Positions 6,380 to 55,464 of a stretch of DNA of 64,000 bases are shown piece by piece. Below the pieces are notes generated by a model, which was given only the letters and a program-made list of their open reading frames with translations, searched no databases and had not been told where the DNA came from. The stretch is from Sphaerolaimus hirsutus (lineage: Eukaryota; Nematoda; Chromadorea; Monhysterida; Sphaerolaimidae): positions 1,922,001 through 1,986,000 of the forward strand of contig OZ038454.1 of the NCBI GenBank assembly GCA_964036195.1, in the 5' to 3' direction. Position numbers and translations under genes: made by a program. How positions within the stretch are numbered: the stretch's first letter is position 1; each line of letters starts with the position of its first letter.

Positions 6380-7225
6380 TAGTGATGGAAAAGCGCCAGA
6401 AAAAAGGGCGCCAAGCGCCAAGGGCGCCATGGCGCCATTCGGAAAGTGCGCGCCAGGCGCCAAGGGCGCCACGGAAAGAGGGCGCCAAGCGCCAAGGGCG
6501 CCAGGGCGCCAATTGGAAAATAGGGCGCCAGGCGCCAATGGCGCCAGAATACATACCGTATTTCTCCTAATAGAAGAGCGCCCTTCTATATTTTGTCAAC
6601 TTTTTTACCTGCCCTTCTATTAGAGACGCCTTTCTATTGAAAGCCACTGTTTTATATTCTTCGAAATTTTTTCAGGCAAGTTTTGACAAAGTTTTTCAGA
6701 GTGTCAAATCGTCACACACGATTCACAGAATGACGATACATAGGTTTATATAATATTTAGTCTTGAAATAGAACAAAATCAATGGACCGGAGGCGTAAAT
6801 TTGATCATTCACTTTCTCCATGATGTATCCAGGAAAAACGAGATAGGCAACAAACTTCTGACCTGTCAGATGTATTTATCTGATAAACTGTTGGACGAAA
6901 GATTTACGTCCACTCGCATTTTTGTGGCGTGTTCCCATTGTCAACGCATGCGCTTTTTTATTTTTTTATTTTTCCATTTACGCTACACTCGCCTTGAAAC
7001 CCTGCTGGCGCCATTTTGGCGCCCTTTTTGGGCAGGGCGCCAGGCGCCAAGGGCGCCACGGAAATGGGGCGCCAAGCGCCAAGGGCGCCATGGCGCCTTT
7101 CAGAAAGTGGGCGCCAGGCGCCAAGGGCGCCACAGGAAAAGGGCGCCAAGCGCCAAGGGCGCCATGGCGCGGCGCCCTTTGGCGCCCTCAAATGGCGCCA
7201 GCGCCATAGCGCCATTCCATCACTA
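6380..7225. mobile_element. hAT-like element, TAGTGATGGAA ends, GGCGCC arrays
   Basis: The ends are TAGTGATGG and CCATCACTA. The 8-bp duplication ATCGCAGC flanks it exactly (6372-6379, 7226-7233), and the interrupted sequence GAGCTATCGCAGCC is found uninterrupted (ATCACAGCC) near 1935. Both ends carry arrays of GGCGCC, AAGGGCGCCA and CCAAGCGCC words. The middle (6551-7000) holds a stretch starting ACCGTATTTCTCCTAATAGA plus unique DNA. Long open frames in the arrays are compositional. Confidence 0.85.
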
Positions 7226-11760: not shown

Positions 11761-11766
11761 AAATAC

Positions 11767-11915
11767 CGTATTTCCCCGATTTAACCTCGATTGAATAACC
11801 CCCCCCCCTCGAATAACCCCCAGGTGTCTTTGAGCTGGGGAAAAAAATAAACCTCCCTCGAAATACCCCCCATCTGGAATGATGTACACCATGTATGCAA
11901 TGTACATGATGTATT
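11767..11915. mobile_element. Left half of a TA-flanked MITE interrupted by the Harbinger-type element
   Basis: It starts ACCGTATTTCCCCGATTTAACC and runs to GTACATGATGTATT. It matches the uninterrupted copies at 38692-39091 and (inverted) 29057-29470 up to this point, where the match stops at the element boundary. The other half is 28601-28863. Confidence 0.85.
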
Positions 11916-11945
11916 GTGGCTGTACACGCTAGTTTACCAACACGG

Positions 11946-12013
11946 CACGTCGATCAAAAATGTAAACTGAAACGCGACGCGTCACGCGTCGGTTTACATT
12001 TTTGATCGACGTG
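11946..12013. repeat. Subterminal hairpin at the left end of the element
   Basis: Two 22-bp arms (11946-11967 and 11992-12013) are perfect reverse complements. Each ends in GTAAAC/GTTTAC toward the loop, which is made of ACGCGACGCGTC words. It sits 30 bp inside the transposon end and could be a transposase- or accessory-protein-binding site; that role is inferred. Confidence 0.8.
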
Positions 12014-12075
12014 TGTACTTTAGTTTACGTTGGTGTTTCACTTTCTGGGGTTAGTGGTTTCGGCAAGTCACAAAA

Positions 12076-12200
12076 GTGCGACGCGTCGCACGATTACACA
12101 CGAATGTGACACAGCTGGGTAAACTGGAAGTGACGATTATGCGACGCGTCACATTCGTCGCGCGACACGTCGTATGCGACTCGCGACGCGTCGTACAGCC
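12076..12200. repeat. GCGACGCGTCGC palindromes, left subterminal region
   Basis: A perfect 16-bp palindrome, GTGCGACGCGTCGCAC (12076-12091), is followed by several GCGACGCGTC, GTCGCGCGAC and GCGACTCGCG variants to about 12195. Similar GTCGC/GCGAC words recur in the large transposase intron (26340-26470). Confidence 0.65.
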
Positions 12201-13131
12201 AAAAATAAGGAAGGATTTATTCCCCGAGACTTATCAGGTGAGCAGTAAACTAATTTTTTTTGACTTTTCAAATTCCCTAACGTATCTTTGTTGCAAAACG
12301 TAGACAATTTAGACGTGACAATTACGTTTGTGTGTGTCTGCTAACATTTGTTCTTTATCGTGACTGTTGATATTTCGTTTTTTATCGTGACTGTTAATAA
12401 TTCGTTTTTGTTACTTTTTACTTCAATTTACAAATTGAAATCTACGTAACAGATTTATTGCGTGATTTCATCATGTTGTTACGGATAGAAAAATTAAAAA
12501 TTACATGGACACGTGATTTGTATGGAAGTTCGACAAAAAGAAATGCAAGTGCGACAAAATAAAATCCAAACTTTGTACTCGCGAATTTTCAATGTATATC
12601 TAAAACTGTAAAAAAAGAAATCATTCTCCTTCTTGCTTCGACAAAAAGAAAGGAAGTGCGACAAAAAAAAATCCAAACTTTGTACTCGCCAATTTTCAAT
12701 TTAAATATAAAACTGTAAAAAGAAATCATTCTCCTTCTCGCTGTAACAAAAACTAAGAAAAAACAAAAACAAGACTATATTGCTGTTGACAAGAGTTACA
12801 CTTTTGAGCAAAATTTAAAACTTGTTTACCTATCTCAGAATGCGAAATTTGACAATTGTATATGGAAGAAACTTAAAAAGTACATAACGTTTTCACTTTG
12901 AAATGTGATAATTTGCGAATGATGGAAATGTTACAAAAAAGGAACTGTATGAAAACGTAAAATGATAAGAAACTGCATTAAAACGTATTCACTACTTTCA
13001 GCACTTTCACATGACTGAAGCCTTCTGTGCATGTAAACCCAGTGTGCATGTGGACCATAATTTTAACTCAAATTCGACAATTTCCATAACTTTTTATATA
13101 TTTTCACCTTTGAAACGACTAGTCCATGTGT
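12201..13131. other. Left spacer of the Harbinger-type element, no gene
   Basis: AT-rich sequence between the left terminal repeats and the 3' end of the minus-strand gene. It contains two direct copies (about 12530-12610 and 12650-12735) of a roughly 80-bp unit with AAATCCAAACTTTGTACTCG and AAACTGTAAAAA. No exon was seen. Confidence 0.5.
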
Positions 13132-13137
13132 TTTATT
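13132..13137 (-). terminator. Candidate poly(A) signal of the 31-exon gene
   Basis: AATAAA on the minus strand about 150 bases downstream of the stop codon at 13286-13288. It is the first such hexamer I see in the expected range. Confidence 0.5.
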
Positions 13138-13285
13138 TTTAAGAACTATCAATTGCTCCAGAGGAGTCTACCCAATCCCCTGGAGCCTCGTGGAAAGTCA
13201 ACATGTAGAATACCGCTGACATGCACATGGGGTAAACATGCACAGAGGCACACGCCCCTTTCACATTACCAAAAAAAACAACATT

Positions 13286-16200
13286 TCAATCATCAAAATC
13301 CTCCAGTTCCTCATAGTAGTCTTCATTGATCGCCTGAGAATGTGTGCAATTTCAGTATACTGTTCTATTTGTTAAAAAGAAGTAAACAGTTTACATCTAT
13401 GAACATCTGTAATGGTAAACTTATAGAAAAGTTTCCAACTGTTTCCCAGATATATATATATGCACACTGGGGAACTGTACATATCAATTACTGTAGAAAT
13501 ACTAAAGTCTAGTAGACACTGCACATAGAAACATGTACAACACCGAAAACCACAATTGAACCCAAGACGTACCGCCAGTCGTTTTGCGTAGCCCTCCTCA
13601 TCCAAAGGGCAATTGCGCGGCGTCGTACCGGCGCGCGATTGGCGGATCGGCTGTGGCACGGTACGGCGCTGTTCACTGGTCGGCGGCGGTTCGCTTGTCT
13701 GCACATTTTCATACTGTAAACATAGATTACAGTACGAAGCAAAATATCGAAGCAATTTTCTATCCTAACCGTTTTGGTCCCGGCAGCCGCTTGCTCGCTC
13801 CTCTTTGCACTTTTGCGCGCGCTGGCCGGGGAACTGGCAGCAGTCTGATTCTGAGTTTATATTATCATTTTATAATGGCAACAAAGTTGTACAACAGAAG
13901 CACTGCAGACAGAAACTTACTGTCAGGCGGTACCGCTTCGCAGCACATTCTGTGTCCGGTACAGGCTGGCCAGTGCGTTTCTGGGCACTTTGCAACAGCA
14001 CGACGCCATCGTCGTTCTCGCAGTCCATTTCAGCGGGCTGTAAAAAAGCGGATAGAATTTACTTGCTTCTTAACACTGAATTATAAGTAGGAAAAAAAAA
14101 ACAGAAACTGTCAGTCACCTCGGCATACTGCAGCTGTTGATGCTGCCGCTGCGGCGCCTGCGATGCCACAAACGAGTACGTGATGCCGTCTTCAGTGGCA
14201 TCCACCTGGTGGCACGACTGCAAATATACATGAGAAATTTCAATTTGCATATGGTATTGCACATGAAGAAGTAATGAAATGTATTACTAACGTTAACGTT
14301 TTGCAGGGCTTGCTGCAAGTGCTGCACTTCAAAGCGGGTTGCCTGAAGCTTGGCAGCCAGGGCAACCTCGGAAGCCTGCCTTTGCATCAAGTGTGCGGCG
14401 ATGGTCGTCGCTGTGTTCACATTCACCGGTGACGTGTACAGCAAACTCGGTGCTTGCACGTTCTGTTGCGGAGTGGGCAATTTCTGCACGGTGGGCAATT
14501 TGCCCTTTTCCGTCGGCACGGATTTCTTGGCTTTTTTCATAGACCCGCCGGCAAGTTGGTCCAGTTGTTGCGTCGGCTGTAAGTACGATATGTCACTTTA
14601 TCATAATCATAAAGAAATGCACTACTACAAATAAGTACCACTGTGCACACTGATTTACCGAAATATGTATAAGAATGTGTAAATTGGATTTCATCAAAAG
14701 TAACAAGAAGTAAATCTTTTAAATTACACATTTTCAATTTACCAAAAGATGCATCTTAAGTAGTTTGTTGACACAAAAGAAAGAGTGCAATCCTCACAAT
14801 TTCAGCCAGGTATTGTACCAGACTGTCATCTTGGTCCGGTTCGGCAACTTTCGCCTCCTGCTGCGGAAACGCAAAGTTGCCCGGCTTTGTTTTCTGATGT
14901 AAGTAACATTAGTAGTTAGTACAGGGTTGTTAGTTACATGCTGTTTACGTACATCATGAAACACCACCGTTATACTCACCTGCACCGGCGTGACGTTGTA
15001 GTCCATTTCCGCGTTCTTTTGCGGCGCGGCGAGGGGCGACACAATGAGCCCGCTGGTCCTGCGGCGGCGGCGTTCGAGCAGCGCACTGCCAGACGGATTG
15101 GCAGGCGGAGCCGCAACGATCGGCAAACTGGTCGTTCCAGTATTGGCGGATTCCTACGAAAAGTTAACATCATTTACGAAACGTTTCAAGTAAATTACTT
15201 TTTCCTACTTTTAAGTGGTGACGTTGAGATACCTTCAAGGCAACAGTCCCGAAAACACACACACTCCATTCTCAAAATGTTTATCAATCAAATAACCTGG
15301 TTCATGATGAAGTCCTCGATCATGTCACAGAACTTGTTCAGATCGGCCTTCAGCAGCGTGTTGATGACGCCGATTTCCTGCTGCACCACGCCGATGAACC
15401 GTATGTTCTTGATGAAGGAGCAAATGCAGGGCAGTTTGCTGCGCTTCACGCTGTCCGCATTCACGCTTGTGCTCTGCAAATTAGCACATTTGAAAGATAT
15501 GGTAGAATTGACTGAATACATGACAATAAAGAATAGTTTACCGATTGGGTGCACTGCGACAGCATGCTTTCCATACTTTGGCGCATTGCACGGATCGCTG
15601 CAACGTCCATCTTGTCGATAATGGGCGCGCACTGTTTCAGCACGCTGTGAAACTGGGGGTTCGTCAACAGCTCGTGCTCGCGGCATGTCTGGCGGTGGTT
15701 ACGGCAATTTAAAAAAGTGTATATTAAAAACGGGAAATAAAACTAAAATGGTCAAAACGTAACACTTAACAAAAACAATTTACTATTACACTTTAACGTT
15801 AACACAAAGTACATTTTTCTTCACTCCTTACAATTTTCCTGTTACATTCATGCAACTCGCACCTGGTTGTTGTCCTGCGCCATGATGGGCGCGTTGTCCT
15901 GCGCCATGATGGGCGCGTTGTCCTGCGCCATGTCGGGCGCCTCGTGAAAGTCCTCCGGCGGTGGGCTATCGACCGTTTTCACCGTCCCTGGCGCGGGGGG
16001 AACGGCACTCGCAGCCTGTTTCACTCGGTAATCCACGAGTTGCACCGCCATACTTTGCGGCTCAAATTTCTCCGGCGTGAACGTGGTTTTTACCAATTTG
16101 CCCAGCATGATGTAGAAGTTTCCCTGGCACACGTTGTGCCAGTAAACTTGCATTGCCCGGCGCCAATCGGTCGCTGTAAAGTGCACAACCACTGCTACAA

Positions 16201-19200
16201 ACGTACAAACATAAAAACAACATTAAATGATACATTTCAGTAAACCAACATCTACTGGCCTTTCCGTCTTTGAACACAATCATGGGCATGGTGGAGAACT
16301 GGATCATTTCTTCCGCCAGTTGCATAGCCTGGGCCTCCGATTGCCGCATTTGGTGCACCAGGGTAAAAACGATGTCCGCCTTCAAGTCGGTTCGCACCTT
16401 GTCCAACTCGATTTTCCACGCGTAGTGCCCCAGCTCGCGCCGGCTGATCTGAATAAACGTGTTGAAAAGGTTAGTACTGTTCCCCAAACTGTGATAATTC
16501 ACTGACGCAAGGCTTATCTGAATCAACCTGGGGCAGTTCTCCTGGCTCCACTTTCGGAATGGCGGCTTTTTGTTCAGCGGTGCGGCCCTGACTGCGCAGG
16601 CGTTCCACGATGTCGGGAAACACTGAGTAGTTGTACCATTTTTGCGTAATGCAAATGCGAAGTTTACATCTACATGGCCCGGAAAGGGTAAACTCACCGG
16701 ACTCGTCTGCATAGTAGTCCATGTGCTTCAGAGTCGCGAAATTGAGCTCCATGATGTTCTTGTAGTAGTGCGCCCCGAGGTCCTCGTTTGACACGCCGCT
16801 CAGACAGCCGCCGTAAAGTATGCGCGCTTGGGTCAACGCTCTCTGAAAGGACAGTGAAACAGTGTTACGTGTACGGTGTAAAACAAAGTTGCTTACTTGA
16901 AACTGAAAGTAAAAGATTGTTTTCACTTGCTGTAAAACGGAAACTGAAAGCTATTTGCACTTGCACAAAAACAAATACTGCGAAATGTTTTGCACTTGCC
17001 AGAAAAGGGAAACAGATACATTTCCCGCACTTGCTGTAAAACGGCATACAGAAATTTGACACAGCAGTACTCGTCAACTGTAAACTGAGAAGTCTAAAAC
17101 ATGGTTAACCTTGAACTGCCGCTTTTTCGTGTCCCACATCGACTGCAACATGCCGCGGTGGGCCACCAGAGCGGACTGGTTTGTTTTGGCGGACTCGTTC
17201 GCCACCTCGCGGGTCAACCACATCTTGTTGTCAGGGTAGTTGTCGTACGGGGGCTCGAAGTAGCTCTCCCTCGTGAAGTTGTTCCACGACCTGTTCACCG
17301 CCGGGTGATCGGACCGCTGAAAAAAGAAATGAAAGAATGGTTACAGAAAGGAATCTTTAACTCTCAAATGAAAGTAAGCGGTAAACTGCAACTAACGTTC
17401 GTTTGCCTTTCCGGGTGATGCAGGTCGTACTTGGTGCACTCCTTCATGCTCCAGCACCTGTGAGTAATGTATGTGTTCACAACGTCCATTTACTTGTGTG
17501 ATAAAAAAATACAAACAGAAACAAACAGCGGGTATTTCTGGAACAGCTCGTGGAACTTCTGCCAGAATTCTTCCGATTTCTCGGCCGGAATCAGCACGCT
17601 CGGCCGGCCTCCGACGCCGACGCGGCTCACATCGCCGGTAATCTGAGGTCACTCACACACCATCTTAACTGTCCAGTATACTGTTTCCAGCCATGCACGT
17701 TTGTAAATATCCTGTTAAATACAGGTAGCCTTCCGGCTAACCGTTTTATCATGATATTGTACGAATTGCAAGGCAAGCAACAGTTTACATTTACTTGCAG
17801 ACGGTGTGTGACTGTCACCGGTTTTTTCGGTTTTTTCCCGGCCACTTTCAGCTTGCTTGGGCGCTTTTCAGTCTTTGACTGGGCCACCGCCAGCGACCGC
17901 TCATCGTCATCGGATGGCGTTTGCGACCCGTCGTTGGGCCCGCGGCCGCGCGGCCCCAACGGATTCATTTCCTGAGTTACGGGAGGTATGTGAGATTGTC
18001 ACGTAACTGAAAATGTATGGGAAAGTCACAATTATGCACGATCCGGAACTATCCAAACCGAAGGGGTCCGAATCGTAAGCTACCTCTTGTTCATCATCCT
18101 CCTGGGTGAAGTCCTCCACCCAGTCCTTGTCCTTCTGTGGATTGTCCTCGTCCACTTGGCCATCCTGAAGCTGTTTCAGTTGCTTCGTGGCATTCACGCG
18201 AGAGCGGCGCACGCTGCTGTTGTTGCGGCGGATGACTGGCACTTGCTGTATACAAGAAAGTGCTACTGTAAATGCAAACTCTTCTTTTGAAAATGCCAAA
18301 AACGGTCATTTAAACGTACCACTTTAGCGACCTGTGCAGCCAGCGCCCTCGTTTGCTCCTCCAGTCTCTTGGCATTTTCCTTCCTCCGCCTTTCCATTTC
18401 CACGTCCACTGCGCTCGGTGGCGACTTGGCGGTCTGACTGTACCGCGGCGTGATGAAGTCGTCATCATCGTCCTGCAGTTTACAACGCTAAGTTTACTGT
18501 TTCATGTAAAGAGAACTTAAAAAGAAGTTTACTACATCTGCGCATGCACATGGTAAACTGCAAACTTTGTGCTTGTAGGCATTCATAAATGTGTTTGGAA
18601 CGGATTGCAGTTTACTTGAATGAGTTATGCCCCAGTAATTGCGTTTGACATATACATTATTTTGGTGAACTGACATGCATTCAAAGCTGATTTATGACGT
18701 TTCCAGCACACAGTTTGCAGTTCAGCGTGTGTACCCAAGTTAAATTAACCTCCCAGTCGTCCCACTTCACCTTGGCGCGCACATTTTCTTTTTTCACGCG
18801 TTCTTCGTGCAGGCTCCTTTTGCTTTTGGACGCCTTGCTCTTCAGCGCCACGTGTCGCTCGTACTCGAGCTTTGCCTGAGAGATATTTGAAAGTAGTGTT
18901 TTGCAGTGACAATTACACAGTGTTTTAAAACACAGTGTGTTTCAAATTCATGTATACAGCAAGACTCGCTGGTGGATTTTAGAACGGTACAAATCGTGGA
19001 ATGTGTCTATATAGTTACTGCTTGAAACATGATAGATGTGGGTTCAAGTCCCTATCCCGATCCCCATTCGTATGACGATCCCGATCCCCATTCGTATGCC
19101 GATCCCAATCCCCATTCGTATGCCGATCCCGATCCCCATCCCCATCCCGATCCCCATCCCGATCCCCATTTGTATGCCGATCCCGATCCCCATCCCCATC

Positions 19201-22200
19201 CCGATCCCCATCCCGATCCCCATTCGTATGCCGATCCCGATCCCCATCCCCATCCCGATCCCCATCCCGATCCCCATCCGTATGCCGATTCCCATGCCCA
19301 TCCCGATCCCAATCCCGATCCCGATCCCGATCCCGAAAACTCAATCCCCTTTGAATCCTACTGACAATGACACACTGTTTAACTACAGTGCGTTTCAAAT
19401 AAATTTTCGCTGTAATATTTTCATGTAAATACACGAATATTTCCAGATTTATAGTGTTTTGCTGTATGGAAGAAATCGTGCAAGGTTTCTACAGTGTGTG
19501 CTTGAAACATGAAAGATTTGGGTTCAAGCAAAATATGTCCGAAACATTTAAACGTGAGAATGACACACGGTTGTTAAAAAATGCGTGTTTCAAATAATGA
19601 AGGTAACACAACCCTGTCAACTGCACACAGGTATTTTTAGCATGACATTCATGTGTACAGTGCGTGCTTGAAACATGAATGATGTGGGTTCAAGCAAAAA
19701 ATGTCCAAAATGTAAATGTCCAAAATTTAAATGTCCAAAAGTCAAACGTCACCTTCTCAGTCAGCGTCAGATCATACTCCGATGGCGGGCGGGCAGTCTG
19801 AAAAAAATTTAAGTTGGAAGTGCGCACACGTCTAACGTGTCATACAACAGAATAAAAGCAGTATGCCTAGCCTAACTGAACAACTTAATTCACTGGCAGT
19901 TGGGAACAAGAGCGTCATGTCGCAGCAAGGGCAGCAATCCAGCGGGCCTTACGCTGCGCAACAGTCGCAGTCCGATTTCAGTCGCACTTTCTCACATGGC
20001 ATGTTCCAGTTTCCCGCCACAACGAACACCTCAGCCTACCCCTTTCCACCACCGCCCCCAAACAGGTGCTTGTGTACACATTTCAGTATCGTTTCTCTAA
20101 AGCTACCTGCCTATCAAGAACCAATTAAAATTTAAACAGCACATTCTAATAAAGAATGTGCTCCAAATAGTGACGTATGATCGTTTTGGACAAGGATTTA
20201 CGCAACAACATTCTGCTTGAGACTGCCACCAAACACTAAAAATGCATGCCATCATCATTTTCCCTGAAACATGACATTAGCGGGTTTCACTTTTCACACT
20301 GCTAAATGATTTTTGTGATTGCAGGTGCAGCAAACAGTTCTTATGTGATAAGGTTTGTGTATGAGAAAATGTAACAGTGTGTACACAAGCACAGTTTTCG
20401 TTTTCCGGTACCCGGTGCGTCTACACCCAATCAAACAACACAAGTGCAAAGCGGAACTTCAGTGTCCACAGCGGAAGGCATGAGTATTGACAGGAGTGAG
20501 GAGGATGCAGGCCCCAGAATGACACCATTTCAAGCTGTTAGTTTACAGTGCAGTAAAAACTGACCATGTTGACAAAAATTTGTCAAAGTTGATCACGTGT
20601 TATTCGTGTTATTCAAGAAATACGTTTTTTTCCCATTTCTTTCAAAATGCAGATGGATGAGCTCATCAACTTCACGAAAACCACCGAGAACAACATCGTA
20701 CACGTGAACACGCAAGTGCAGAAACTGGTGAACACAGTGAACCAGTTTACGGGCAAGATGCATATGGCCAGTAAAGCTACGGAGGTTCTGTTGGAACACA
20801 CTAAGTTGCTCGAAAAGAAAGAGAAGGCTTATGAGCGCATGGTGACAGAGCTCGTTCCGCGTGACCTGCAGCGTACCCATCCTGTCAATCGCTACATGTG
20901 AAACACTGAACCAACTGATTCCCCCCTTTTATACAGAGAACTGTGATGTTCAGAAAGTACTGCTTAAAAGTGAACCGTTCTTGTAATAAATGTCTCGGAA
21001 AGCGCAACATAATTGCAAACTCACTTTACTATTGTCAAAATTCAAATTTCGCTTCACGTCGGACGCTGTGGGCGTGGCTGTGTCAGCGGGTTTGCCTGGC
21101 GGTGCAGTCCGGACAGGCTCGGCGGGCTTGGCGGGCTCGGCGGGCATGTCGGGCTCGGCATTCTCGGGTGGGTTCTGCTTATCCGCCCACCACGGAACAC
21201 GCTCGTTTGCACCCTGAAAAAATGAGAAATGTTGAAAGAATTTTGCATTAGAAAAAGCTGTAAAGTAGCGCATGCACATGCTAGTTTACTGCCACATGTA
21301 GGTAAACTGATAAAGCAGCTTTGAACGCATTTCAGTTCACTGAAATGGTTTATTCATTGACTGGAGTTGCCAGAGACATCACTGTATGAAACGCAAATGC
21401 GTTATAAGTTGAGGTATCAGTTTACAAAAATGTTGCGGTAAAGTAGTGTGTGCATGACCATTAGTACAACAGAAGCTGGATTACAGGGAAGCTAACTAAC
21501 ACCAAAGAATGACACCGAAAATGAGGGAAAAAAGGTATAGATGGTGCATGTACTTAAGCGATGTACATGCTTAATAATTAGTTGAAATCAGAATCCACCT
21601 TCCTTTCACCAACACCGGGAAAGTGCACAGTTAATAGTCCTAGAAGCTACAAAAAACTTTAAATGGTAAGTGCCACTTACAGTTAAACTTACACTGTCGA
21701 ACGGCCTACCTGCCATTCAGAAAGTTATTCGAAAAAAGTTAACAGTAAAATGGTAAACAGTGTCGGGCTAACGATATCCATCAGGCGACGCGGAAGCGAA
21801 TTTGTGCGGTGGTAAATTGGAAAGGGTGCAAACGGGCCCGGTGTCCTCGTCGTGTGCCGAATCCAACCGTCGTCACCGGGACCCGAGTGAACCCAGCCCT
21901 GGCCCTCGTCCAAAACATCTGCAGAAAAGAGCACGTTACAATGAATGTTTCCTTTCCATGTTAAACTGACAGTTAGAAAAGAGTACTGTCTTTGTACATG
22001 GCCGGCAACGGGGTAGTGCACGTGGGCACGAACAAATTGTCCCGGATTTCTTGCAGGGTCTGTGAAATAGGAGAAACATTTTGATAAAATGTTTTGCAAA
22101 AGGAACTTAGCCATGTATAATTTTGTAAATACAAAATTATAAAATCAGAGCAGTTGAAGCCAGTTTCGATTCAGCCAATGTAATTCTCACTTTGTAAGAA

Positions 22201-23686
22201 ACAATTAAAATTTTAAGACAGTGAAAAAGTGGGCATTTTGATCGCTGAAAAATATATATATGGCACACACTGAGACATTTTTGATTCCAAGAATATACAC
22301 CTTTCTAAGAACCAATTAAAATTGTCAGCCAGTGAAACAGTGAGAAATTTGATGGCTGAAAAATATATATATGGAACAGACAGAGACATTTTCGATTCCA
22401 TCAATCTACACCTTTCTAAGAACCAATTAAAATTGTCAGCCAGTGAAACAGTGAGAATTTTGATGGCTGAAAAATATATATATGGCACACACTGAGACAT
22501 TTTTGATCCCAACTTCTGATGCATGAGGTGAACAATTTTCAAAAGAGAAATATGGGAAAAAGTGATTTTACAGAAGGATTTTGGTATAACAAAAATTTAA
22601 ATATGGAACCCACTTAGACATTTTTTGATTCCAAACATACCTGCAGAATGTGCAAAATTTTCAAAACAGAAACATGGTGAAATTTTATTTCACATGAAAG
22701 ATTTTGGTTATACACAAATATAAATATGGAAGCCACTTAGACACTTTTGATTCCAACGGAATATGCAGAAGGTGAAAAATTTTCAAAAGAGAAACATGTG
22801 AAAAATGGATCTCACATGAAACATTTTGGTTGAACAAAACTATATATGGAACCCTGTCAGACACTTTTTGATTTCATACATATACGCAGAGTTTGCCAAA
22901 ACTTAGAAACGGAATTATGGGAAAAAGTCATTTTACATGACCGATTTTTGGTATAACAAAAATATAAATATGAGCCCATTTCCCTACTTTTTTGATTAGT
23001 ATACGTCTCCATATTTCACCAAAAAACAATCGTACTGAACTAACTTCGGCGGTGATTGTGCCCTTCACCTTCTGCACGCCACTGCTTTTCGGCTGACGAT
23101 CAGTGCGCTTATCTGGCACGATCGGATCGCCATACTGAAATACGTAAGAGTACATCTATTGAAGAATTTACCAAACTGAACATTCTTATATAGAAACTTC
23201 CGCATACTTAAAATTTACATTTAACGAAAACAAAGTGCAAAAAGGATGAAAGTAAGGAAGTAAACTTACTTCATTCAGAGGGGCAGTTCTGTACTCGCAC
23301 GTCCTGTTGTGCTCCTCCCTCAAGCGCTTCTTTTCCGCAATCTTCCTGGGGCTGTCCGGCGGAATTGGTAGGCCGGCCTCCATCGCCAAGCGCTCTTCCT
23401 CATCCTGCAACACATTCAGAAACGTCTAAAACATGTCTCAAGAACACTGAAAGAATTCTTACTGAAAGTAAACTAACGTAAATACCGTGACACCGTGGCT
23501 TGTCACAAACGAAGAGCGCAAACTTTCGCTTTGGCTTCTCGGCTGCGGCAGTGTCTTGGCCAACTGTCGGCGTCGGGGGCTTGGCCTTCACGGCTGTGGC
23601 AGTGTCTTGGCAAACTGTCGGCGTCGGGGACCGCGAACCCCCAACAACGACAGTTTTCACGGGCAATTCCTTGGCGGGCGGTACGA

Positions 23687-23738
<52 letters not shown>

Positions 23739-25012
23739 TGCGGGCGCGGAAGCCGTAGTGCTTGCAGCGGGTGCAACCACTGCGGACGGCACAAGGGGAC
23801 CACCGTACACGTTCGTGGCTGCCTCACGTGCCTGCCGTTGCAGCTCCTGCTGCAAAGTGACAGTGTGTGTGTGATCAAACTATCAGTTTACATCTACATT
23901 TTACATAATGGGTAAAAGGTGCTACAGTATGTCTGTCACAGTGTGCAAAGTTACACTGTCATGGCAACATCAGTTTACATCTACTTTTTACATAAGTGGT
24001 GAAAACAGCAACAGTAGTTCACGTTGCGCAAACTTTCATGAAAGTGTACAGTGAGGTAATGCCTGAAAGAGAACGTATTCAAATAAAGAAAAAATGACAA
24101 ACCATTTTTTTCTCTTTCAATTGCAGCCTCTTCTTGTCTCTGCGCCGCTTCGCCCCGATTCTGTCATTTTCCAACTTTCTCAGCCTTCTTTGCTCCTCCA
24201 TCGACAATTTCTGCTGGCGCGCTCTTTCCTCCTCGCGCGCTTTTTCCTGCTCCTCCAAACGGTCACCGTCAGCCGGGACTTCCGGCTCAGCCGGAGAGTC
24301 CTGACTCGCGAACAAATCCTGAAAAGGAACATTGTGTACACTTTTGACATGGTGGAAAGAGAATTCCGCATAGTTGAAACAAATGAAATGTGAGTTTACG
24401 AAAAAGCACAGAAGTTTGCTAAATTAGAGCTGAATTTAGACAAATTTCAAATAAAGAATAAACTGTGTGTGTAGAAAAAGTTCAGAAACCCGTACAAATA
24501 TAAGTAGCAAACCTGCGACAAAATCCTGCCAAACGAATGTGCGAGGTGATCGTCGGGGACAAGCACGCGCTGCGGCTCGGAAATGTCGCGCTGAGAACTC
24601 TGCGCAGCCTGCCCTCTGGTGTGCATGTTTGTGCCTCGGCCGCGCACGGGCGGTCCAGTCGGAACGGTCTGAAGGGGGGCAAACGATTTGTAAACATTGG
24701 TTGGCTTATCTTGCATTGTAAATATCGCGTTGGCTTGTAAACATTCGCAAATTGTAGATAAATTGGCAGATGTCCAAAAGACACTTGTACTCAAACAAAA
24801 ATGATAAGTAGAAAACGCATGAAAAGAAATAGTAAGATAACCAAAGAAATCGGATGAGTAACCTGTTCTGGGGGCTGGCTCTCAGTTTTCTGCTTTGGCG
24901 GCCATCCACGTTTGTTTCCATTTTTGCCTTTGCCGCCATCCGAAGTCGTTTCCGCGGTCGCGGAAACGTTTTGCGATCGGCCGCGCGCCATACCGCTCAA
25001 AGTTCGGACCAT
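13286..25012 (-). CDS. 31-exon, 1548-residue accessory protein of the Harbinger-type element
   Basis: I do not recognise the family. Exons (minus strand): 24863-25012, 24513-24668, 24103-24318, 23478-23849, 23270-23404, 23045-23134, 21987-22059, 21773-21918, 21058-21213, 19753-19797, 18750-18875, 18320-18472, 18084-18245, 17819-17971, 17527-17642, 17397-17457, 17110-17316, 16698-16842, 16528-16622, 16256-16448, 15863-16194, 15542-15688, 15297-15473, 14980-15153, 14798-14893, 14292-14576, 14119-14217, 13921-14037, 13770-13850, 13573-13713, 13286-13333. They sum to 4647 bases, and every junction is GT-AG with matching phase. The N-terminus is basic with an AT-hook-like NKRGWPPKQK. Then come a charged coiled-coil (exon 3), an Ala-Pro repeat (exon 4), a central region rich in Trp/Tyr/His (exons 16-21, about residues 750-1090), three MAQDNAPI-type repeats ending exon 21, and an acidic C-terminus (EDYYEELEDFDD). 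It starts head-to-head with the transposase. A role in transposition is inferred from location only. Confidence 0.8.
19044..19340. repeat. CCCGATCCCCAT simple array in an intron
   Basis: About 25 units of CCGATCCCCAT or CCCATCCCGATC, with TTCGTATG interruptions, lie inside the intron between exons 10 and 11 of the large gene. The long frames of alternating Asp-Pro-His or Ile-Pro are artefacts. Three copies of a CTTGAAACATGA..GGGTTCAAG sequence (about 19020, 19500 and 19665) surround it. Confidence 0.75.
19863..20901 (+). CDS. Nested 197-residue protein, 3 exons, antisense inside the large gene
   Basis: Exons 19863-20065, 20395-20536 and 20653-20901 join in phase (AACAG|GTGCTT, GCT|GTTAGT; acceptors CACAG, TGCAG) and encode about 197 residues. 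Residues 1-67 are Gln/Ser-rich and end in a Pro run. The middle has an acidic SIDRSEEDAGP segment. The last 82 residues are helical and heptad-like (DELINFTKTTENNIVHVNTQ onward, with KLLEKKEKAYERM), probably a coiled coil. The gene lies wholly within the intron between exons 9 and 10 of the minus-strand gene. A TATA-like AATAAAAG precedes the start by about 10 bases and AATAAA follows at 20985-20990. I do not recognise the family; it could bridge the transposase and the large protein, but that is a guess. Confidence 0.6.
20985..20990 (+). terminator. Poly(A) signal of the nested gene
   Basis: AATAAA 84 bases after the stop codon and 68 bases before exon 9 of the opposite-strand gene begins. 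Confidence 0.6.
22200..22990. repeat. Intronic tandem array, unit about 115-120 bp
   Basis: In the intron between exons 6 and 7, a unit containing GGCTGAAAAATATATATATGG, GAGACATTTTTGATTCCAA and AACCAATTAAAATTGTCAG repeats about three times almost exactly (22200-22520). Three to four degenerate copies keep TATGGAACCCACTTAGACA and CATGAAAGATTTTGGT (22590-22990). Confidence 0.75.
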
Positions 25013-25264
25013 TTTCGACGCGAAATCAATCGAACGGTCTATTTTTCACTTTTCCACAAAATTTTTGCTTTTTATTTCTTATCTGTGAAAGATATGGATT
25101 TGTGACAAAAAAAAGTGACACGTCGTGATACAATTTTATGTTATTCATGGTTACTTTTTTTAATCACATGTTTCATTTCTGGCTACATGCCAGAAATGTC
25201 TGGCATATGGCCAGAAATCTGAAATATCGATTGACAAAAACTGTCCCCAAAAAAACGTTTCAAA
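25013..25264. promoter_or_regulatory. Bidirectional promoter with GCCAGAAAT palindromes
   Basis: 252 bases separate the start codons of the divergent transposase and 31-exon gene. At 25174-25218 ATTTCTGGC and GCCAGAAAT words form two overlapping inverted repeats (spacers TACAT and ATATG-like). This is the arrangement of a dimeric operator able to control both genes. The promoter role follows from the head-to-head layout; the operator role is inferred. Confidence 0.6.
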
Positions 25265-27744
25265 ATGGCGCACGATGAATCCGTTTTGGGACAAATGCAA
25301 AGAATGAACGAAGCGCTAGAGCGGAATTTGGATGGAACTGCGCCACTAACGCACAATCAGAAGAGACAAATATTAGCTGCTTTTTTGGCAGTCGGGAACA
25401 CGTTGTTTTCGTATGATGTGGACAACGACGACGAAGAACAAGAGCAGGAACAGCAGAATGCCGCGCAAGAACAGGGTGATCAGGGCAGGAAAAAGTACAT
25501 GACACCGTATTTACTAGAAAGGGCGCGCTCCAGGGGCAATTACTGGCGAGCTGTTATTGCCTGCAAGAACACCGATCCAGCATGGTTTTACAAACTGTGC
25601 AGGGTTCGTTGTTTCACAATTTCTGTTATTTACGTAAAATATACACACGTATATAACATCACTTACTGTGTTGTGACATTTTCATGTTATTGTTTACAAC
25701 AACATCGCAATTGAACAGTAAACTGATATGTATGAATGAACTCAGTTTACCGATAACGTTCACAATGATTACAAATTAATTACAGCTGTGGCCAACTGAA
25801 TTCGAACAGCTGCACGCGATGCTTACAGCTGTCGACCCTGAAACTGGTGAACAATACCTGAGAACACGAGATGAAAGAAGACACATCGCTGTAGTGACAA
25901 CCGAAATGCGACTGTTTTACTTTCTGTATACATGCGCAAACGGCCGGAAGTTGAAGATTGTGCCGGCCAGTCACAGGTGATACCATTTTTCATGCTTTTA
26001 GATTGCTTTATAGTTCATTGTATTTTGGAAAAAAATTTACAGATTTCCGGCGCTACGATTAGAACGATTATTGACGAAGTGTCCACCGGAATAGTGAAAG
26101 TTTTGAAGGACGACTTGAAACCTATGGGGAGTGATTTAGGGCAAATGAAAGATTTCGCGCAGCAATACTGGAAACTGTGGCAGATGCCGAACTGTGTGGG
26201 GAGTCTGGATGGCAAACACATCCGTATTCGCAAACCTGCTGGTAAGTACATATCATTTTACGCATTCTACTTTTGCCCTCATGTGTGTTGTTTCCAGTAA
26301 ACATAAACATGGTGAGTCGTATGCAACGTCACGGTAAACTAAGCGTCGCATTTGCGACGCTTGCGACGCGTGCGTCGCCTTCAATCAGAAATAGTCGCCA
26401 GTTTACCAAGGTTGCAAATTTTTTTGTGAAAACGTCGCTTTTCGTCGCATTTTGCGTCGCAACCGTCGCAAAATCGTTGCTTTTGCTTGAGTTTAACCGC
26501 AACCCCCACCGATTTGAAAGTAACTTCATTTGGGTCATGGGAATGTTGTGCAAATGATTTTTGGATGTACTTGTAGAGAAAAAAATTGCGCTTCTTCTGA
26601 CGTACCTGGCTTCTCATAAAAGTTATCCAAAAAAAAGTTATGATTTTTTTTTAAAAAAGGGCCAAATTGCGCGACGAAATGGCGACGGTCTGGCGACGGT
26701 CTGGCGACTGTAGAAAAATGACTAAATTCACAGTGATGGGAAACTGTGCAGTGAGGTGGAAATGTTTAGTTACAAAAGTAATTGAAAAACGCCTTGCAGA
26801 GGGTGGAACGAGGTACTGGTGCTACAAGGGCTTCTCGTCGATTATACTGTTCATCAGCGCCAGTGCGGATTTGAAAATTCAGTACGTGGACATCGGTATG
26901 CCGGGGTCACAAGCAGATGGTGCTGTGCTGATCACGTCTGATTTCGGGCAGGATTTGATGTGAGTTTACATCCTTTTTGACATGTTCCAATGAGGTGCTA
27001 TACATTTACACATGATAAAAGTGATACATTTACACAGACATGGCAGAATGCTCATGGCGCCACCCTGCTTGCTGCCCGGTGCAGATGCCAACAAACCTGC
27101 AAATACCATTCCGAGTTATTTTGTGGGTGATCAAGCGTTCGCGTTGCGCAAGTGGTGTATGGTGCCATATGCGCTGCATGCAGATGACAGCCAGCGACAC
27201 TTCAACTATCGGTGTGTTTGAATATTCTGAAAGAAGCGTTGTTCGGTTAAACTGAAATCTAAATTTGACTGCAACTACTGCAGCTTATCCCGAGCTAGGC
27301 GTACTGTCGAATGCGTCTTTGGTATTTTGGCCGGCAGATGGCGCATACTGATGACCTGTATCGCGATGGAACCGCCACGCGTACAAAGACTGGTTATGGC
27401 CTGTTGCCACCTGCACAATTGGCTGCGTGATATCCGCGGAGAAAGTGCTGCCAACCAATTTTATGAAAATGGCGATGAAAAACCACAAGACGACCCGAAC
27501 AACACTGTTGAGCGAAACGTAAGTTTACCTTGCATATTCACTGTTACAATTCAACATCACATAAATTCATTCCCATACACAGCTGCAGTGGCGACCAGTG
27601 TACGACAACATGGATACGATCGATAACGTGCCAATCCGAAGGGACGTTGACGAAAGAGATGCGCGCCCCATCAGGGATGCAATCAAGGAGTGGATGATGA
27701 CGGACGCCGGTCGTGTTCCGTGGGTGAATCCCGCTGACTGCTGA
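25265..27744 (+). CDS. PIF/Harbinger-type DDE transposase, 7 exons, one frame break
   Basis: Exons: 25265-25603, 25786-25976, 26043-26241, 26800-26959, 27038-27211, 27284-27518, 27583-27744, about 486 residues. The catalytic core matches the DDE_Tnp_4 nuclease fold of PIF/Harbinger: first Asp in PNCVGSLDGKHIRI (exon 3), second in QYVDIGMPGSQADG (exon 4), a GDQAFALRKW motif (exon 5), and Glu in SRARRTVECVFGILAGRWRIL (exon 6), followed by CCHLHNWLR. The upstream helix-turn-helix-like segment (RLFYFLYTCANG and ISGATIRTIIDEV) spans exons 2-3. The phases disagree there: exon 2 with its good donor (ACAG|GTGATA) ends in phase 2, but exon 3 is open only in phase 0. All other junctions agree. Either a short deletion broke the gene or a weaker donor (ATT|GTGCCG) is used. 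The protein would cut and reinsert the element in the nucleus. Confidence 0.88.
26300..26760. repeat. GTCGC/GCGAC-rich block in the transposase intron
   Basis: The large intron 26242-26799 contains words CGTCGCATTTGCGACGC, GGCGACGGTCTGGCGAC and two GTAAACT/AGTTTACC words. The same vocabulary occurs at the left terminal region of the element. It may be an internal copy of terminal sequence or a small nested insertion. Confidence 0.45.
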
Positions 27745-28534
27745 ATTTGCAACTACGTTGAATATAAAAATCAAACTGAAATATTTCCGTTGCAGTGGCA
27801 GTTAGCATTAAAGTGGAACTGGAATGGTAAACTGATGTAACAAATGCAAAAAATTCATTTTCATGCTATCTGCTACAGCTACACTTCATTTTTCGATTGC
27901 AACCGGTTATAATGGTTGTTATGTAGTACACTGTCGTTGAATGGACAATTTTCATTCACTATTCGATTTTTGGCTGATTTTTTCTTTTTTAATTGTGATT
28001 AAATCATAATTCGCAAAGTCTTTTGTTTCACGCCGCGAAAAATTGTGTGATGTGTGCAGCTAATGTTCCTCTTTCATGTGTGATTTTTTTTTCCGGATTC
28101 GGGCTTTCCGTTCACGTGCTAGTGATTTATTTGCGTTTAATTGAAATAAAATCATAAAAAATCAAAAGTTTATATTTCATGTCCGCTGTGTACACCAATC
28201 GATAGCGCAATGAAAAGTGATAATTTAGAACGTTTCAATAAACGAAAAAACTTAACAGGTGATTTTATACAAATTTATTTCCACAAAAAAATGATAAATT
28301 CAATAAAAAATCCAATGTTGCACTTAAAAATATTTTAAAAATTTTGACAACATCTACACAACGTACTGTACACGATGACGCAAAAAAATTGCATAAACTA
28401 TGCTCCGTTCTTCCACAATTAAAGAAATTAGAAATTAATGTTTACAGCGTAAATTCACATCACAGGCAAACTTGAAAAAAATAAAGATGGCGGCCTAAAC
28501 TCCGCCCACTTTTACTATGCGTGAATTTAGCCGG
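27745..28534. other. Right spacer of the Harbinger-type element, no gene
   Basis: AT-rich sequence after the transposase stop codon. Several ATAAA/AATAAA hexamers (around 28145-28310) could end the transposase transcript. No exon was recognised. Confidence 0.5.
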
Positions 28535-28590
28535 TAAACTAAAAAATGGAGTTTACCGCCAGTAAACTGAAAACGCCAGTAAACTAGTGT
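28535..28590. repeat. Right-end GTAAACT cluster
   Basis: Four GTAAAC/GTTTAC words in about 55 bases (CGGTAAACT, AGTTTACCGCC, AGTAAACTG, AGTAAACTAG) immediately inside the right terminus. The same word occurs four times within the first 110 bases of the left end. Subterminal clusters of a short word are typical transposase-binding sites. Confidence 0.7.
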
Positions 28591-28600
28591 GCGTGGGGCC

Positions 28601-28863
28601 ATTTAGTGGTGCCAGTTTCCATCGCGCACATATAGGTACATCAATTTGTGTACAGATGTACGTCTGTATGCGTCTGTGTCCCATTACTTACCTTTACCGG
28701 TTTTGTGTATGAAAAGCGTATTCTTTACTGTGAATATCACGAAAATCTCCGACGAAATGATAACCCCCCCCCCCTCGAATAAGCCCCCCCCTCGAAATAT
28801 CCCCCCTCAAAATTTCCGCTCTGAAAAAATAAACCCCCTGGGGGTATTTCGAGGAAATACGGT
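28601..28863. mobile_element. Right half of the interrupted TA-flanked MITE
   Basis: It begins ATTTAGTGGTG and continues with TTTGTGTACAGATGTAC, the next part of the repeat after the GATGTATT where the left half stops. It then runs through G/C tracts to the right end TATTTCGAGGAAATACGG, followed by TA. Confidence 0.85.
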
Positions 28864-29056
28864 AGAACAAAACATGGCAAAACACCCTGTCATTAGCAAA
28901 AGGATTAATCTGAGTTTGGCCATGAAATATAGTTAATTTATGATAATCTTGATTAAGGCAGTACGGGATCACGTTGTGTTGTGACACTCTCTCAAACATT
29001 GAAACAATGGATTACCAGATGCCCACTGACCACACATTTTACGATAAAACTGATGA

Positions 29057-29470
29057 CCGTATTACCTCGAAATACCCCCATGGGGGTTTATTATTTTGCC
29101 AGCAAAATTTGAGGGGGGGTTAATTCGAGGGGGGTTTATTCGAGGGTTTTTTTTATTATTTCGCCAGAAAATTTCGTGGAATTTGTAGTAAAGAATACGC
29201 TATTTCTTACACAAAAACGGTAATAAATGTGAGAATATATTTAGGTTATATTGGGGCTATAGATGTACATCTGTACACAAATGAGCGTATAAGAGTAGCT
29301 GCGATGCAAAAAAGTAGTAATAAATACATCATGTACATTGCATACATGATGTACATCATTCCGGGGGGGGTATTTCGAGGGGGGGTTTATTATTTCCCCA
29401 GCCCATTTTGAGGGGGGGTTAATTCGAGGGGGGGGGTTAATTCAAGGGGGGATAATTCGAGGTAATATGG
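29057..29470. mobile_element. TA-type MITE, full copy
   Basis: CCGTATTACCTCGAAATACC at the left and the inverted GAGGTAATATGG at the right, with G7-G8 tracts inside. The middle (CATCATGTACATTGCATACA) matches, inverted, the copy at 38692-39091. It gives one of the two empty-site references for the 16.7-kb insertion. Confidence 0.8.
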
Positions 29471-29489
29471 TAAATGCATGAATATAAAA

Positions 29490-34685: not shown

Positions 34686-34756
34686 CAAATCTTTAATACA
34701 CACTTTAAAAGCTGGTGAATGTGTGAATAAATGTCACTGTGCATCCATACATTCAG

Positions 34757-37700
34757 GCAGCCTATAACAGAAAGGCAAGCCCAAACAATACTGCACTCCT
34801 GGAACAGGGCCACATGCCTGATCCAGCCGGCGGACAGGGGAGTGGCCGTGCGCATCTTCGTGCACATGGTCAAGCTGGCACCCGAGATCAAGGCGGTGTT
34901 CGGCTACAAGAACCACAGCACCAGCCACATGCTCCATGATGAAGCCTTCTGCGAGAAAATGGTCACCTTCCAGAAGTCGCTCGACCGCATACTCAATCAG
35001 TTGACGGATACTGAAAGGCTCGTGTCACACCTCAGGCAACTTGGCAAGATACACCTGCAATATCAAGAAAAAGTGAGGGGGTTTTGCAATTGGGATGTCT
35101 ACTTCTAGAATTTGATAAATCCAGAAATGACAGTTGAGTTTAGCTCAAAAAGTCATCTAGCATGTGTTGTTGCATGTTCAAACATTTAGGTGATTTCATG
35201 AAAAAATAGACAAGAAGTTGATAAATCCACACTTGGAGCAATTTTTGGTGTTTCCACAGATTTTGCAAAATTTCAGAACATTCAAGAAACATTTGAATGA
35301 TAAGTGTTGATGGTGTTTTCTATCTTCTCCAGTGTGATTAAAAAACATATATCCATGAATAAGTTCTCCCCCTTGAATCATTCCTACCAATTGGCCAAGT
35401 TAGAAGAAAACTCCCCATTATTTGTTGGGTAGAAAACAGTTCCAATGCACCAAAAAAAGTATGTATGTATAGTTGAGTATGTGATTGTGAGTGATCACTT
35501 CCATTGAGTGACATCCCATTTGAAGGCTGTATAAGTAGCACACATAGGCCAGAACAACAATAATAGTGAACAGTCCACAATGACAATTGAATAAACACCA
35601 CAACACCAGCTGGCTGCCACATGGGGCTGAGGGACCCCACAACAATTCCCTTAACTGTATTAAGTTATTGTTATTATTATTGGTCACATGGATTGCTTAA
35701 GAACTTAAGCCAAAACTTTGCTTTTACAGCTCGTCCTTCTTAAAAATATGTAAATAAAACTGTTTCTACGTGAAAGCCACTGTTAAATATAATTATTCAA
35801 TCTGTGGCCATTTTTCCAGCAGGCAACAAAGAAGAGGAATGATGACCTTCTCATATTTCAGAACTGCAAGAATGGTAGTGGCATCGACTGGGTATAATGC
35901 CAGCCTCTATGACACCCCAAATATGTAAATTTATAGCTATAAACAGCGTCTGTTATCATTCAAGTAACCTAACTCCTTTCAAAATCAATTCATCAACCTT
36001 CACTCTATGAGCGTGACAGATATCACCACCTAATAATGATTCTCTATACCTATTTACAAGGTATTGAGCATTGTGTGTCATAGACATAGTCCTTTGTTGT
36101 TCATTTCCCTTACAAATACTGAGTATATGTGTCAAATCTCCCTTTTTTAACATTTGCTGTACTACAGTGCTGACAGATTTTCTTTCCAGTTCTATTGTAC
36201 AAACGCAAACCATTGTGTCTTGCAGCGAACCAATTTAGTTCATTGTAGCACAAACTTTTTACTATCATTTCACTTTCATATAGTGTGCAATTTTTTGAGA
36301 TATTGTATTAAGTAAATCTTCATCATCTTGAAGCTCAAGTTCCCTAACATTGATTTCACTGTTCAAATTATGGAATTTGTATTCCCACAAATGAATTGTG
36401 TCACCAATTTAACCCTATTTGTGCAGTGAATAAATCATGCATTTTACTGAAAATTCCGATGAAATAACAACTCCTCCCTTGAATATCCCCCTGAAGAACT
36501 CCCCAGTAAAACCAAAACAAAATAATAACACCCCATTTGAGAATACCTTTAAGGTATATTTGAGATAATATTTGATCTAGTATACAAAATTATAAATATA
36601 GACTACTTCCTCTCAAAATCACCAAAAAAATTCAATGCAAACAGGGATTCAATGCGAATATGTGGAATGTGTTTGCTGAGGCAATGATAGAAACTGTGTG
36701 CTATTGGGAAGGCACTAGCCGGAAATCTGGGCAGAACAAGGAGGTAATCAAAATCTGGCACTGTGCAGTCACTTTCATAGTGATGCACATGTCCATTGGT
36801 TTCTATGATGCCAAGAAAAATGCAAGGAGCTCCAGAACTCACAGAACTGGTGAGTCACAGAAAACTATATTTTATTTAAAGAAAATCATTTTCAAGATCA
36901 AAAATTTCATGTGTTTTTCTATTCATGCTGCTCGGGGATCCCCCAGGGGTGTGTTAGACAATACCTGGGCTTAAGCCAAGCAAAAAGCAGCATTGGCTCC
37001 CCTTCACTTGGGGGTTGGGGTGAGAAAACATAAACATAAACATTGAAAAATATTATAATGCTCAGTTATACCTGCCAGCAGTTTATATACCTCCACATGT
37101 CCTTGACACAGGTTCTCCATGTGAGTCAAAGTCAGATCGTATGCCACGGCGTTTAAAAGTTCTTGCAGTCAACAGTATAAAAATTGCCAGTGCAAGCAAA
37201 AACAGCAGCCCAATGCATAAAATTCATTTGGAACAGAGGAATTCCTTGCCAATGAAAAGTTTGCAATCACTTGACAATGACATGTCAAGTGATGATGATG
37301 ATGTGATTAGACCAAAAACAATGTCACAAGTGAAAGATGTAAAAAGGGGTTTTAGCGAGTGAGTGCTTGAGAAATTGTGTATTTTGGTACTTATATTGGT
37401 TGAAATTTGGTTTGTTAGGTTGTTTAACTTTATGGTTTGAAGAAGGTACCTATGCTTTCTTTTCCATTTCCACAGGTAAATATATTTAAAATAGGTATTT
37501 TAAATTATGTGGAATTGCCAACTTTTGGAAAATTTATTTGTGTTCATCTTCAAAAATGTCAGCATCTTAAAAACTCTGGTGAGAACTCCACAACTGGAGA
37601 AGTAAAATGACTTATTTATAAATCAGAAATAAAATATTTAAAGGAAAATAAATCTATAAGTGAGAAGTTAAATGGCAAGTTACAAGAAATGCGAAAGCAA

Positions 37701-44911: not shown

Positions 44912-45400
44912 CCATATTTCTTCTAATAGAATGGCAAACCTCCAGTAGAACGGCAGGTTTCAGCATATTTTTGGGCTCACGAAAACAATAGATGGAATGG
45001 CAGCCTCCAATTGAATGGCACCTCTAAACTAACGGCAAGTGGAATTGCATTGGAAGAGTGCCAAAACACAAACACATAAAACATGGATGACTCAAAACAT
45101 GGATGACTGACATGGAAAACATGGAAAACATGGAAGTCTCAAATGTCATGTCAAACGTCAAACTTGGATGACATGTCAAATCATTCAAATATATGTAAAA
45201 TCTCAAATTGAAGTCTCTGATGATCAAATATTGCTAAAGTTTTATAAAAAAATGAAGCTGAACAATAATAAATTTTTAAAAAATGGTGTAAAACATTGGT
45301 GAAAAAATATAACAGCAGCCTCCAATAGAGCGGCAGGTAAAATAGTTGACAAAAAAAATAGAACGGCAGTATTCTATTAGAATAAAAAGAGTATTATCTG
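44912..45400. repeat. TTCTAATAGAA word element
   Basis: It starts ACCATATTTCTTCTAATAGAA and ends ATTCTATTAGAATAAAAAG, with CCAGTAGAACGGCAG and CCAATAGAGCGGCAG words and GTTGACAAAAA inside. Related pieces lie at 6551-6660 and 63013-63165. The outer bases TACCGTATTTC match the TA-type MITE ends. Confidence 0.55.
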
Positions 45401-45428
45401 ACGTCAGCTGTTGTCCAGCACTCGGTAA

Positions 45429-46951: not shown

Positions 46952-46959
46952 TCAGATAA

Positions 46960-50239: not shown

Positions 50240-50333
50240 TAATGTGATCTATGTGAAAATTTAGCAATATGAATGCGTGCTCTTTATATACTAAATTGGG
50301 TAAATACATTTTTCTACCGACATACCAAATTTG

Positions 50334-51062: not shown

Positions 51063-51070
51063 CAAATTTG

Positions 51071-55462: not shown

Positions 55463-55464
55463 TA

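Follow-up and report, generated by a model that had tools for sequence, protein, structure and literature searches.

We report on a stretch of DNA of 64,000 nt (the window), judged to be eukaryotic from its spliced genes and repeats, which carries at positions 11916-28600 what is, by its sequence features, a cut-and-paste transposon of the PHIS superfamily (Harbinger-type). The element encodes a DDE transposase, a giant accessory protein of 1578 amino acids and a small protein whose gene is nested in an intron of the giant gene. A 7-nt word from its terminal inverted repeats (TIRs), AGTTTAC, is spread over the whole element, and it is this spread that is new here. We propose that the transposon, which probably belongs to the Pangu group, was inserted once, that the giant gene is resident in it, and that a protein encoded by the element would bind AGTTTAC along its length; we put the probability of this reading as a whole at about 0.55. 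All results on the element come from one copy, within the window.

A single insertion into a host repeat

The insertion is defined by the following features, the host repeat being similar to a miniature inverted-repeat transposable element (MITE).

11916-28600: transposon, 16,685 bp, delimited by its TIRs, the target-site duplication and the interrupted host repeat
11913-11915: target-site duplication ATT, left copy, from the sequence
28601-28603: target-site duplication ATT, right copy, from the sequence
11764-11915, plus strand: part of the interrupted host repeat on the left side of the element (MITE-like), aligning with the copies at (reverse complement) 29050-29480 and 38690-39095
28601-28864, plus strand: part of the interrupted host repeat on the right side of the element; the blastn alignment covers 28694-28864, and divergence is higher in the stretch adjoining the element
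11916-11937, plus strand: left TIR, GTGGCTGTACACGCTAGTTTAC, identical to the right TIR at 14 of 22 positions
28579-28600, minus strand: right TIR, read inward, GGCCCCACGCACACTAGTTTAC

A preliminary description had set the boundaries at 11916 and 28600 from an interrupted host repeat and a 3-bp ATT duplication, and both hold. On inspection of the sequence ATT was found on both sides of the element, and joining the flanks with a single ATT gave an unbroken copy of the host repeat, of which two more long copies exist in the window (those aligned above). In the right half the blastn alignment begins only at 28694. The first 62 bases past the right ATT were nevertheless identical to the two copies at 39/62 and 37/62 positions in an ungapped comparison, at exactly the expected position, whereas none of 91,380 placements elsewhere in the window gave more than 32. 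The last 60 bases to the left of the element matched the same copies at 49/60 and 50/60 positions. The two flank halves therefore derive from one interrupted repeat, and the idea that they are unrelated MITE insertions, raised as a check in the preliminary description, was rejected. Because the joined flanks restore a continuous repeat copy, the insertion is a single event that postdates the host repeat; 11916-28600 is one insertion.

The TIRs are imperfect, with 14/22 identical positions overall and 12/13 in the inner part (for a stretch chosen after viewing, P is about 6e-7 if each site has a 25% chance of matching). Second copies of the three element proteins were not found elsewhere in the window, the best match being one of 27 residues to the transposase at E 0.69. 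With the low-complexity filter on, the only blastn match between the element and the outside at E≤1e-3 joins 13060-13137, just beyond the end of the giant gene, to 48833-48909 (78% identity).

Genes of the element

All three gene models were built by hand from DNA alone.

25265-27744, plus strand: DDE transposase gene, 7 exons, 480 amino acids, from PF13359 and PF04827 matches
Transposase exons, plus strand: 25265-25603, 25786-25959, 26043-26241, 26800-26959, 27038-27211, 27284-27518, 27583-27744
25013-25264: divergent interval of 252 bp between the giant gene and the transposase gene, presumed promoter region
13286-25012, minus strand: giant accessory gene, 31 exons, 1578 amino acids, from the splice model and coding statistics
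Giant-gene exons 1-10, minus strand: 25012-24863, 24704-24513, 24318-24103, 23849-23478, 23404-23270, 23134-23045, 22059-21987, 21918-21773, 21213-21025, 19797-19753
Giant-gene exons 11-20, minus strand: 18875-18750, 18472-18320, 18245-18084, 17971-17795, 17642-17527, 17457-17397, 17316-17110, 16842-16698, 16622-16528, 16448-16256
Giant-gene exons 21-31, minus strand: 16191-15863, 15688-15542, 15473-15297, 15153-14980, 14893-14798, 14576-14292, 14217-14119, 14037-13921, 13850-13770, 13713-13573, 13333-13286
22190-22972, minus strand: tandem repeats with units of 111-122 bp, in giant-gene intron 6
19049-19336, minus strand: tandem array with units of 48/54 bp, in giant-gene intron 10
19863-20901, plus strand: nested gene in giant-gene intron 9, 3 exons (19863-20065, 20395-20536, 20653-20901), 197 amino acids

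The DDE transposase of the preliminary description was recovered in a Pfam search of ten stretches, of which eight lie outside the element: it matches PF13359 (DDE_Tnp_4) over the whole profile (1-158 of 158) with an E value of 3.7e-26, and PF04827 with 5.3e-10. No useful match was found in viral contigs, PDB or NCBIfam. Three candidate donors were tried for exon 2 and a single one, ATT/GTGCCGG (the slash marks the junction), is in frame; because its sequence is weak, there is doubt about this junction, or else about whether that portion of the gene is intact. The exon 2/3 junction was judged by eye, and for this purpose only, against the typical form of the Harbinger helix-turn-helix region. 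The GC content at third codon positions (GC3) of the transposase gene is 0.555. The giant gene and the transposase gene stand head to head, with their start codons 252 bp apart.

For the giant gene the 31 exons described earlier were found again; its protein has 1578 amino acids in our model where 1548 had been given. Splice sites were picked by hand and by open frame. The spliced frame has 0 internal stops, while the two remaining sense frames contain 48 and 45. Its GC content at codon positions 1/2/3 is 0.606/0.446/0.710, and each of the 31 exons (GC 0.40-0.68) exceeds the introns next to it (0.28-0.46). By its composition and codon-position bias the giant gene is coding. Phase 0 was observed for 26 of the 30 introns (P about 3e-5 against a usual share taken as one half), a figure that is indicative since the splice sites were hand-chosen by open frame. 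A putative poly(A) signal is found some 150 nt beyond the stop codon. It could be argued that open frames strung together by chance make up part of the model, or that the gene is decayed, since there is no homologue and no transcript, the splice sites were hand-chosen and the 5' splice sites are unusual, with T at +3 in 14 of the 30 introns. The codon-position bias, the GC contrast at every exon and the stop-free frame all speak against such a model, which we hold to be very improbable.

In composition the giant protein is largely disorder-prone, with basic patches scattered along it; a more ordered character is suggested, again by composition, for residues ~743-1080 and 1125-1232. The whole protein gave no Pfam family at E≤1 and no PDB chain at E≤0.1. 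For residues 743-1076 the best PDB match, asked for up to E 10, had an E value of 0.6, which is chance level, and nothing was found in PHROGs (E≤0.1), NCBIfam (E≤1) or GTDB contigs; residues 802-1076 had no match in IMG/VR viral contigs, and both contig scans detect close relatives only. Two parts of the protein were searched in both PHROGs and NCBIfam, with no match in either.

The nested gene is as previously described, with 3 exons and 197 residues, and its GC3 is 0.58. The C-terminal part of its protein appears coiled-coil-like by eye. In Pfam it gave only matches below the cut-off (COG6_N, E 0.012; HsbA, E 0.065), and in PHROGs a single weak match to an esterase family (E 0.0053), judged to be chance.

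A TIR word dispersed through the element

AGTTTAC is the inner core common to both TIRs. Counting both orientations (AGTTTAC/GTAAACT), we found 40 copies in the element, 38 of them non-coding, against 10 in the 47,315 bp of flanks; in 200 order-1 Markov simulations of the element the mean was 2.4, and no run gave more than 7. When the non-coding DNA of the element was compared with the flanks, AGTTTAC was the most enriched 7-mer of all (Poisson P about 5e-33). With the ends left out (~350 bp each), 29 non-coding copies remain, which still makes it the commonest 7-mer there, and an order-3 model gives a mean of 4.8 and a maximum of 11 (200 runs) for this interior. Expressed as non-coding sites per 10 kb, the density is 36.5 in the left end (5 sites), 58.4 in the right end (5), 34.4 in the introns of the giant gene (22) and 57.9 in those of the transposase gene (6), and 1.7 (2 sites) and 2.3 (8) in the two flanks.

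The word occurs in 15 of 18 one-kb bins. No variant with one mismatch occurs more than 10 times (3.1 expected), and the two orientations of the word are used almost equally (22 vs 18). Coding DNA holds 2 copies against 0.5 from codon shuffling, so exons show no avoidance. Neighbouring sites lie no more than 40 bp apart in 11 cases, where 5.4 would be expected if they were scattered (2000 draws, P 0.01). Within these close pairs the orientation is opposite in 8/11 and takes the form AGTTTAC...GTAAACT in 6/11, three of the six having a spacing of 27 bp. Two clusters stand at the ends:

11931-12251: left subterminal cluster, 5 AGTTTAC/GTAAACT sites with interleaved GCGACGC/ACGCGTC words
28534-28585: right subterminal cluster, 4 AGTTTAC/GTAAACT sites

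The interleaved word, GCGACGC/ACGCGTC, is itself element-specific. It occurs at 11974-12192 in the left end and at 26343-26460 in transposase intron 3, with one further copy in giant-gene exon 8 and 0 in the flanks.

As a control, whole segments were compared with the rest of the window, a test not identical to that of the non-coding DNA of the element. For one control segment the positions of four words were listed: three lie mainly in local clusters, and the fourth stems largely from the same clusters. Thus 32 of the 39 copies of AAGTGTA in 45286-61970 fall in two clusters, 50364-51045 and 54149-54890. AGTTTAC is dispersed, and the possibility that it is a local tandem repeat like AAGTGTA was rejected. 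The two AAGTGTA clusters, with 16 copies each at near-matching spacing, look like two copies of a ~0.7-kb repeat.

Proposed origin of the giant gene and possible role of AGTTTAC

Where the giant gene came from can be judged from the same densities. Since AGTTTAC is about as dense in its introns as at the ends of the element, the gene appears to share the sequence history of the element, unlike recent host DNA; of the internal evidence, this density argues best for a resident rather than a freshly captured gene. Capture would mean that the giant gene, perhaps with the nested gene, was taken from the host at the DNA level with its introns and rides as a passenger. The intron-rich architecture, the GC3 of 0.71 against 0.555 in the transposase gene, the giant protein that matches no known family and the published extra genes on Harbinger-type elements, SET and TET/JBP (PMC12730594, used here, like the other papers cited, in excerpt), would all suit such an origin. 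An intron density of 34.4 per 10 kb, close to the 36.5 of the left end and far from the roughly 2 of the flanks, does not, and we regard capture as unlikely.

The giant gene could also have arrived on an unrelated mobile element that inserted into a Harbinger-type element of normal size. There is a precedent for nesting in the longest PIF/Harbinger-like element of Medicago (PMC2213677), and introns 6 and 10 are rich in tandem repeats and lack AGTTTAC. However, among the 25 longest of 63 inverted pairs in 9000-31000, only one pair inside the element brackets the giant gene, and this pair (12663-12696/26619-26652, 34 nt, 74%) is A-rich, cuts into the transposase gene and looks like chance. AGTTTAC, moreover, runs through the giant gene at the density of the element. 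A composite origin is thus quite unlikely.

On the reading that we favour, the transposase would cut and join the ends of the element, and the giant gene would be a resident accessory gene, much enlarged compared with the usual second open reading frame (ORF), and not a passenger. AGTTTAC may be bound along the element by a protein that the element encodes; the likeliest candidate is the giant protein, by itself or together with the transposase. Such binding would mark or coat the element and so might aid assembly of the transposition complex, keep chromatin open, or both; the small, coiled-coil-like nested protein may be a partner.

A number of observations weigh against this reading. Only one copy of the element is at hand, no domain is recognised in the giant protein (Pfam, E≤1), and the unequal GC3 of the giant (0.71), transposase (0.555) and nested (0.58) genes could mean different origins. 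AGTTTAC is missing from 17 of the 30 giant-gene introns, among them the long, repeat-rich introns 6 and 10, and from the 252-bp divergent region. Strongly enriched 7-mers are no rarity in the window, the best words of three other segments reaching P values of 1e-19, 2e-11 and 5e-21 in the control test. In addition, 10 of the 40 sites adjoin the ends of the 38 modelled introns, 9 falling entirely within the first 16 nt and 1 entirely within the last 16 nt, so that the enrichment could be partly related to splicing.

Taken further, this last point would make AGTTTAC a splicing or transcription signal of the genes of the element, or a relic of intron gain, and not a site for a transposition protein. 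The donor-proximal sites have forms such as GTNAGTTTAC, some sites merge with the splice donor itself (for example GTGAGTTTAC), and 13 of the 30 giant-gene introns carry at least one copy. Against this stand the place of the word at the core of both TIRs, the end clusters outside the gene models (5 sites in 336 bp and 4 in 67 bp), the near-equal use of both strands and the 30 of 40 sites that do not fall within 16 nt of a modelled splice site. To us a splicing or transcription signal seems an improbable account of the word.

A bolder proposal is that the giant protein is a new kind of element-recognition protein, binding AGTTTAC over the full 16.7 kb in an independently arisen anti-silencing or coating system that resembles VANC of Arabidopsis and acts in a Harbinger-type transposon; it is put forward very tentatively and is doubtful. 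Harbinger-type elements are typically small, with two genes. If our reading is true, a resident orphan gene of ~1,580 residues with a TIR word in its introns would illustrate how elements of this type become large. It would also be an independent case in favour of the view that transposons bear short words scattered along them in order to be recognised over their full length by a protein of their own.

Other features of the window

34731-35105, plus strand: open reading frame encoding a globin domain (Pfam PF00042, E 6.5e-8) and likely to be a globin exon of the host; PDB gave nothing at E≤0.001
60043-60669: tandem pair of 313-bp units with 87% matches
6423-7170, 42220-42429, 43412-43573 and 52847-53701: arrays of short tandem repeats of GGCGCC type

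Rfam and tRNA scans of the window found nothing.

Classification and comparison with known systems

The preliminary description had called the element Harbinger-type, which is right for the PHIS superfamily: the one copy has a DDE_Tnp_4-type transposase and TIRs flanked by a duplication within the 2-3 bp (or none) of that superfamily. It is not right for PIF/Harbinger proper. The groups are separated by their duplication, TWA in PIF/Harbinger and ANT in Pangu (PMC4482050), and ATT, in this one insertion, fits ANT and not TWA, so that PIF/Harbinger proper was rejected in spite of the likeness in transposase type, TIRs and a 3-bp duplication. The element probably belongs to the Pangu group (Harbinger2 in Repbase), to which it was assigned by its duplication and second-ORF features. 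It shares with Pangu a DDE transposase with no other recognised domain, the ANT duplication and a second gene without known motif, the last being a weak likeness since it is an absence of match. Its TIRs of ~22 bp begin with GG at the right end and GT at the left, where Pangu TIRs measure 11-40 bp and usually begin with AG or GG. It differs in scale. Autonomous candidates of Pangu have a mean length of ~3,487 bp and mostly two ORFs, the second without known motif (PMC4482050), as against 16.7 kb and three genes here, the second encoding 1578 amino acids.

A Myb-like protein is typical of Harbinger elements (PMC9179366). A Myb/SANT-like second protein was not found here, the giant protein having no Pfam family at E≤1 and the nested protein none above the cut-off, which is a further difference from PIF/Harbinger proper. 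That the element lacks a Myb/trihelix-like protein had been taken as an anomaly; as Pangu second ORFs mostly have no known motif (PMC4482050), this absence is to be expected, and the oddity is the size of the accessory gene.

The view that this cargo lies outside the described range is sustained in one respect: a single orphan accessory gene of comparable size and exon number in the PHIS superfamily was not found in the excerpts of open-access literature searched. It does not extend to cargo as such, for Harbinger-type elements with an extra gene are on record, SET in HarbingerS and TET/JBP in PHISTA (PMC12730594); those extra genes encode known enzymes, whereas the giant gene matches no family tested. 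Size alone has precedents too, PIF/Harbinger-like elements of Medicago reaching 25,288 bp in the longest, which contains nested insertions (PMC2213677). Three Fanzor-bearing MCi-5 elements encode a Harbinger-type transposase whose role there is unclear (PMC3627910), and a review of giant eukaryotic transposons contains neither the term Harbinger nor PIF (PMC6431247).

In Ectocarpus the giants of over 10 kb with accessory genes, which include a Sola-1 family with a gene encoding 1104 aa opposite the transposase, are a likeness in build but belong to other superfamilies (KDZ/EnSpm/Sola-1). Ectocarpus also has ANT-duplicating Harbinger elements; its autonomous Harbinger elements are all described as carrying two genes placed tail to tail, and not head to head like the two main genes here (PMC12477816).

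The closest published parallel located for a short word dense in the non-coding DNA of an element is the VANC anti-silencing system of VANDAL transposons in Arabidopsis (PMC5735166, PMC10398659). There, too, the word is dense in non-coding DNA including introns and scarce elsewhere, as AGTTTAC is, and the element has a large non-transposase gene. VANC sites are densely packed, share one orientation and frequently lie within tandem repeats. Neither arrangement was seen for AGTTTAC, which is dispersed on both strands and has 8 of 11 close pairs in opposite orientation. The transposon is of another kind, and homology to VANC was not found, the giant protein having no Pfam family at E≤1 and hence no match to the DUF1985/DUF287 of VANC. 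By analogy, the AGTTTAC system may work in the manner of VANC, but it does not belong to that system.

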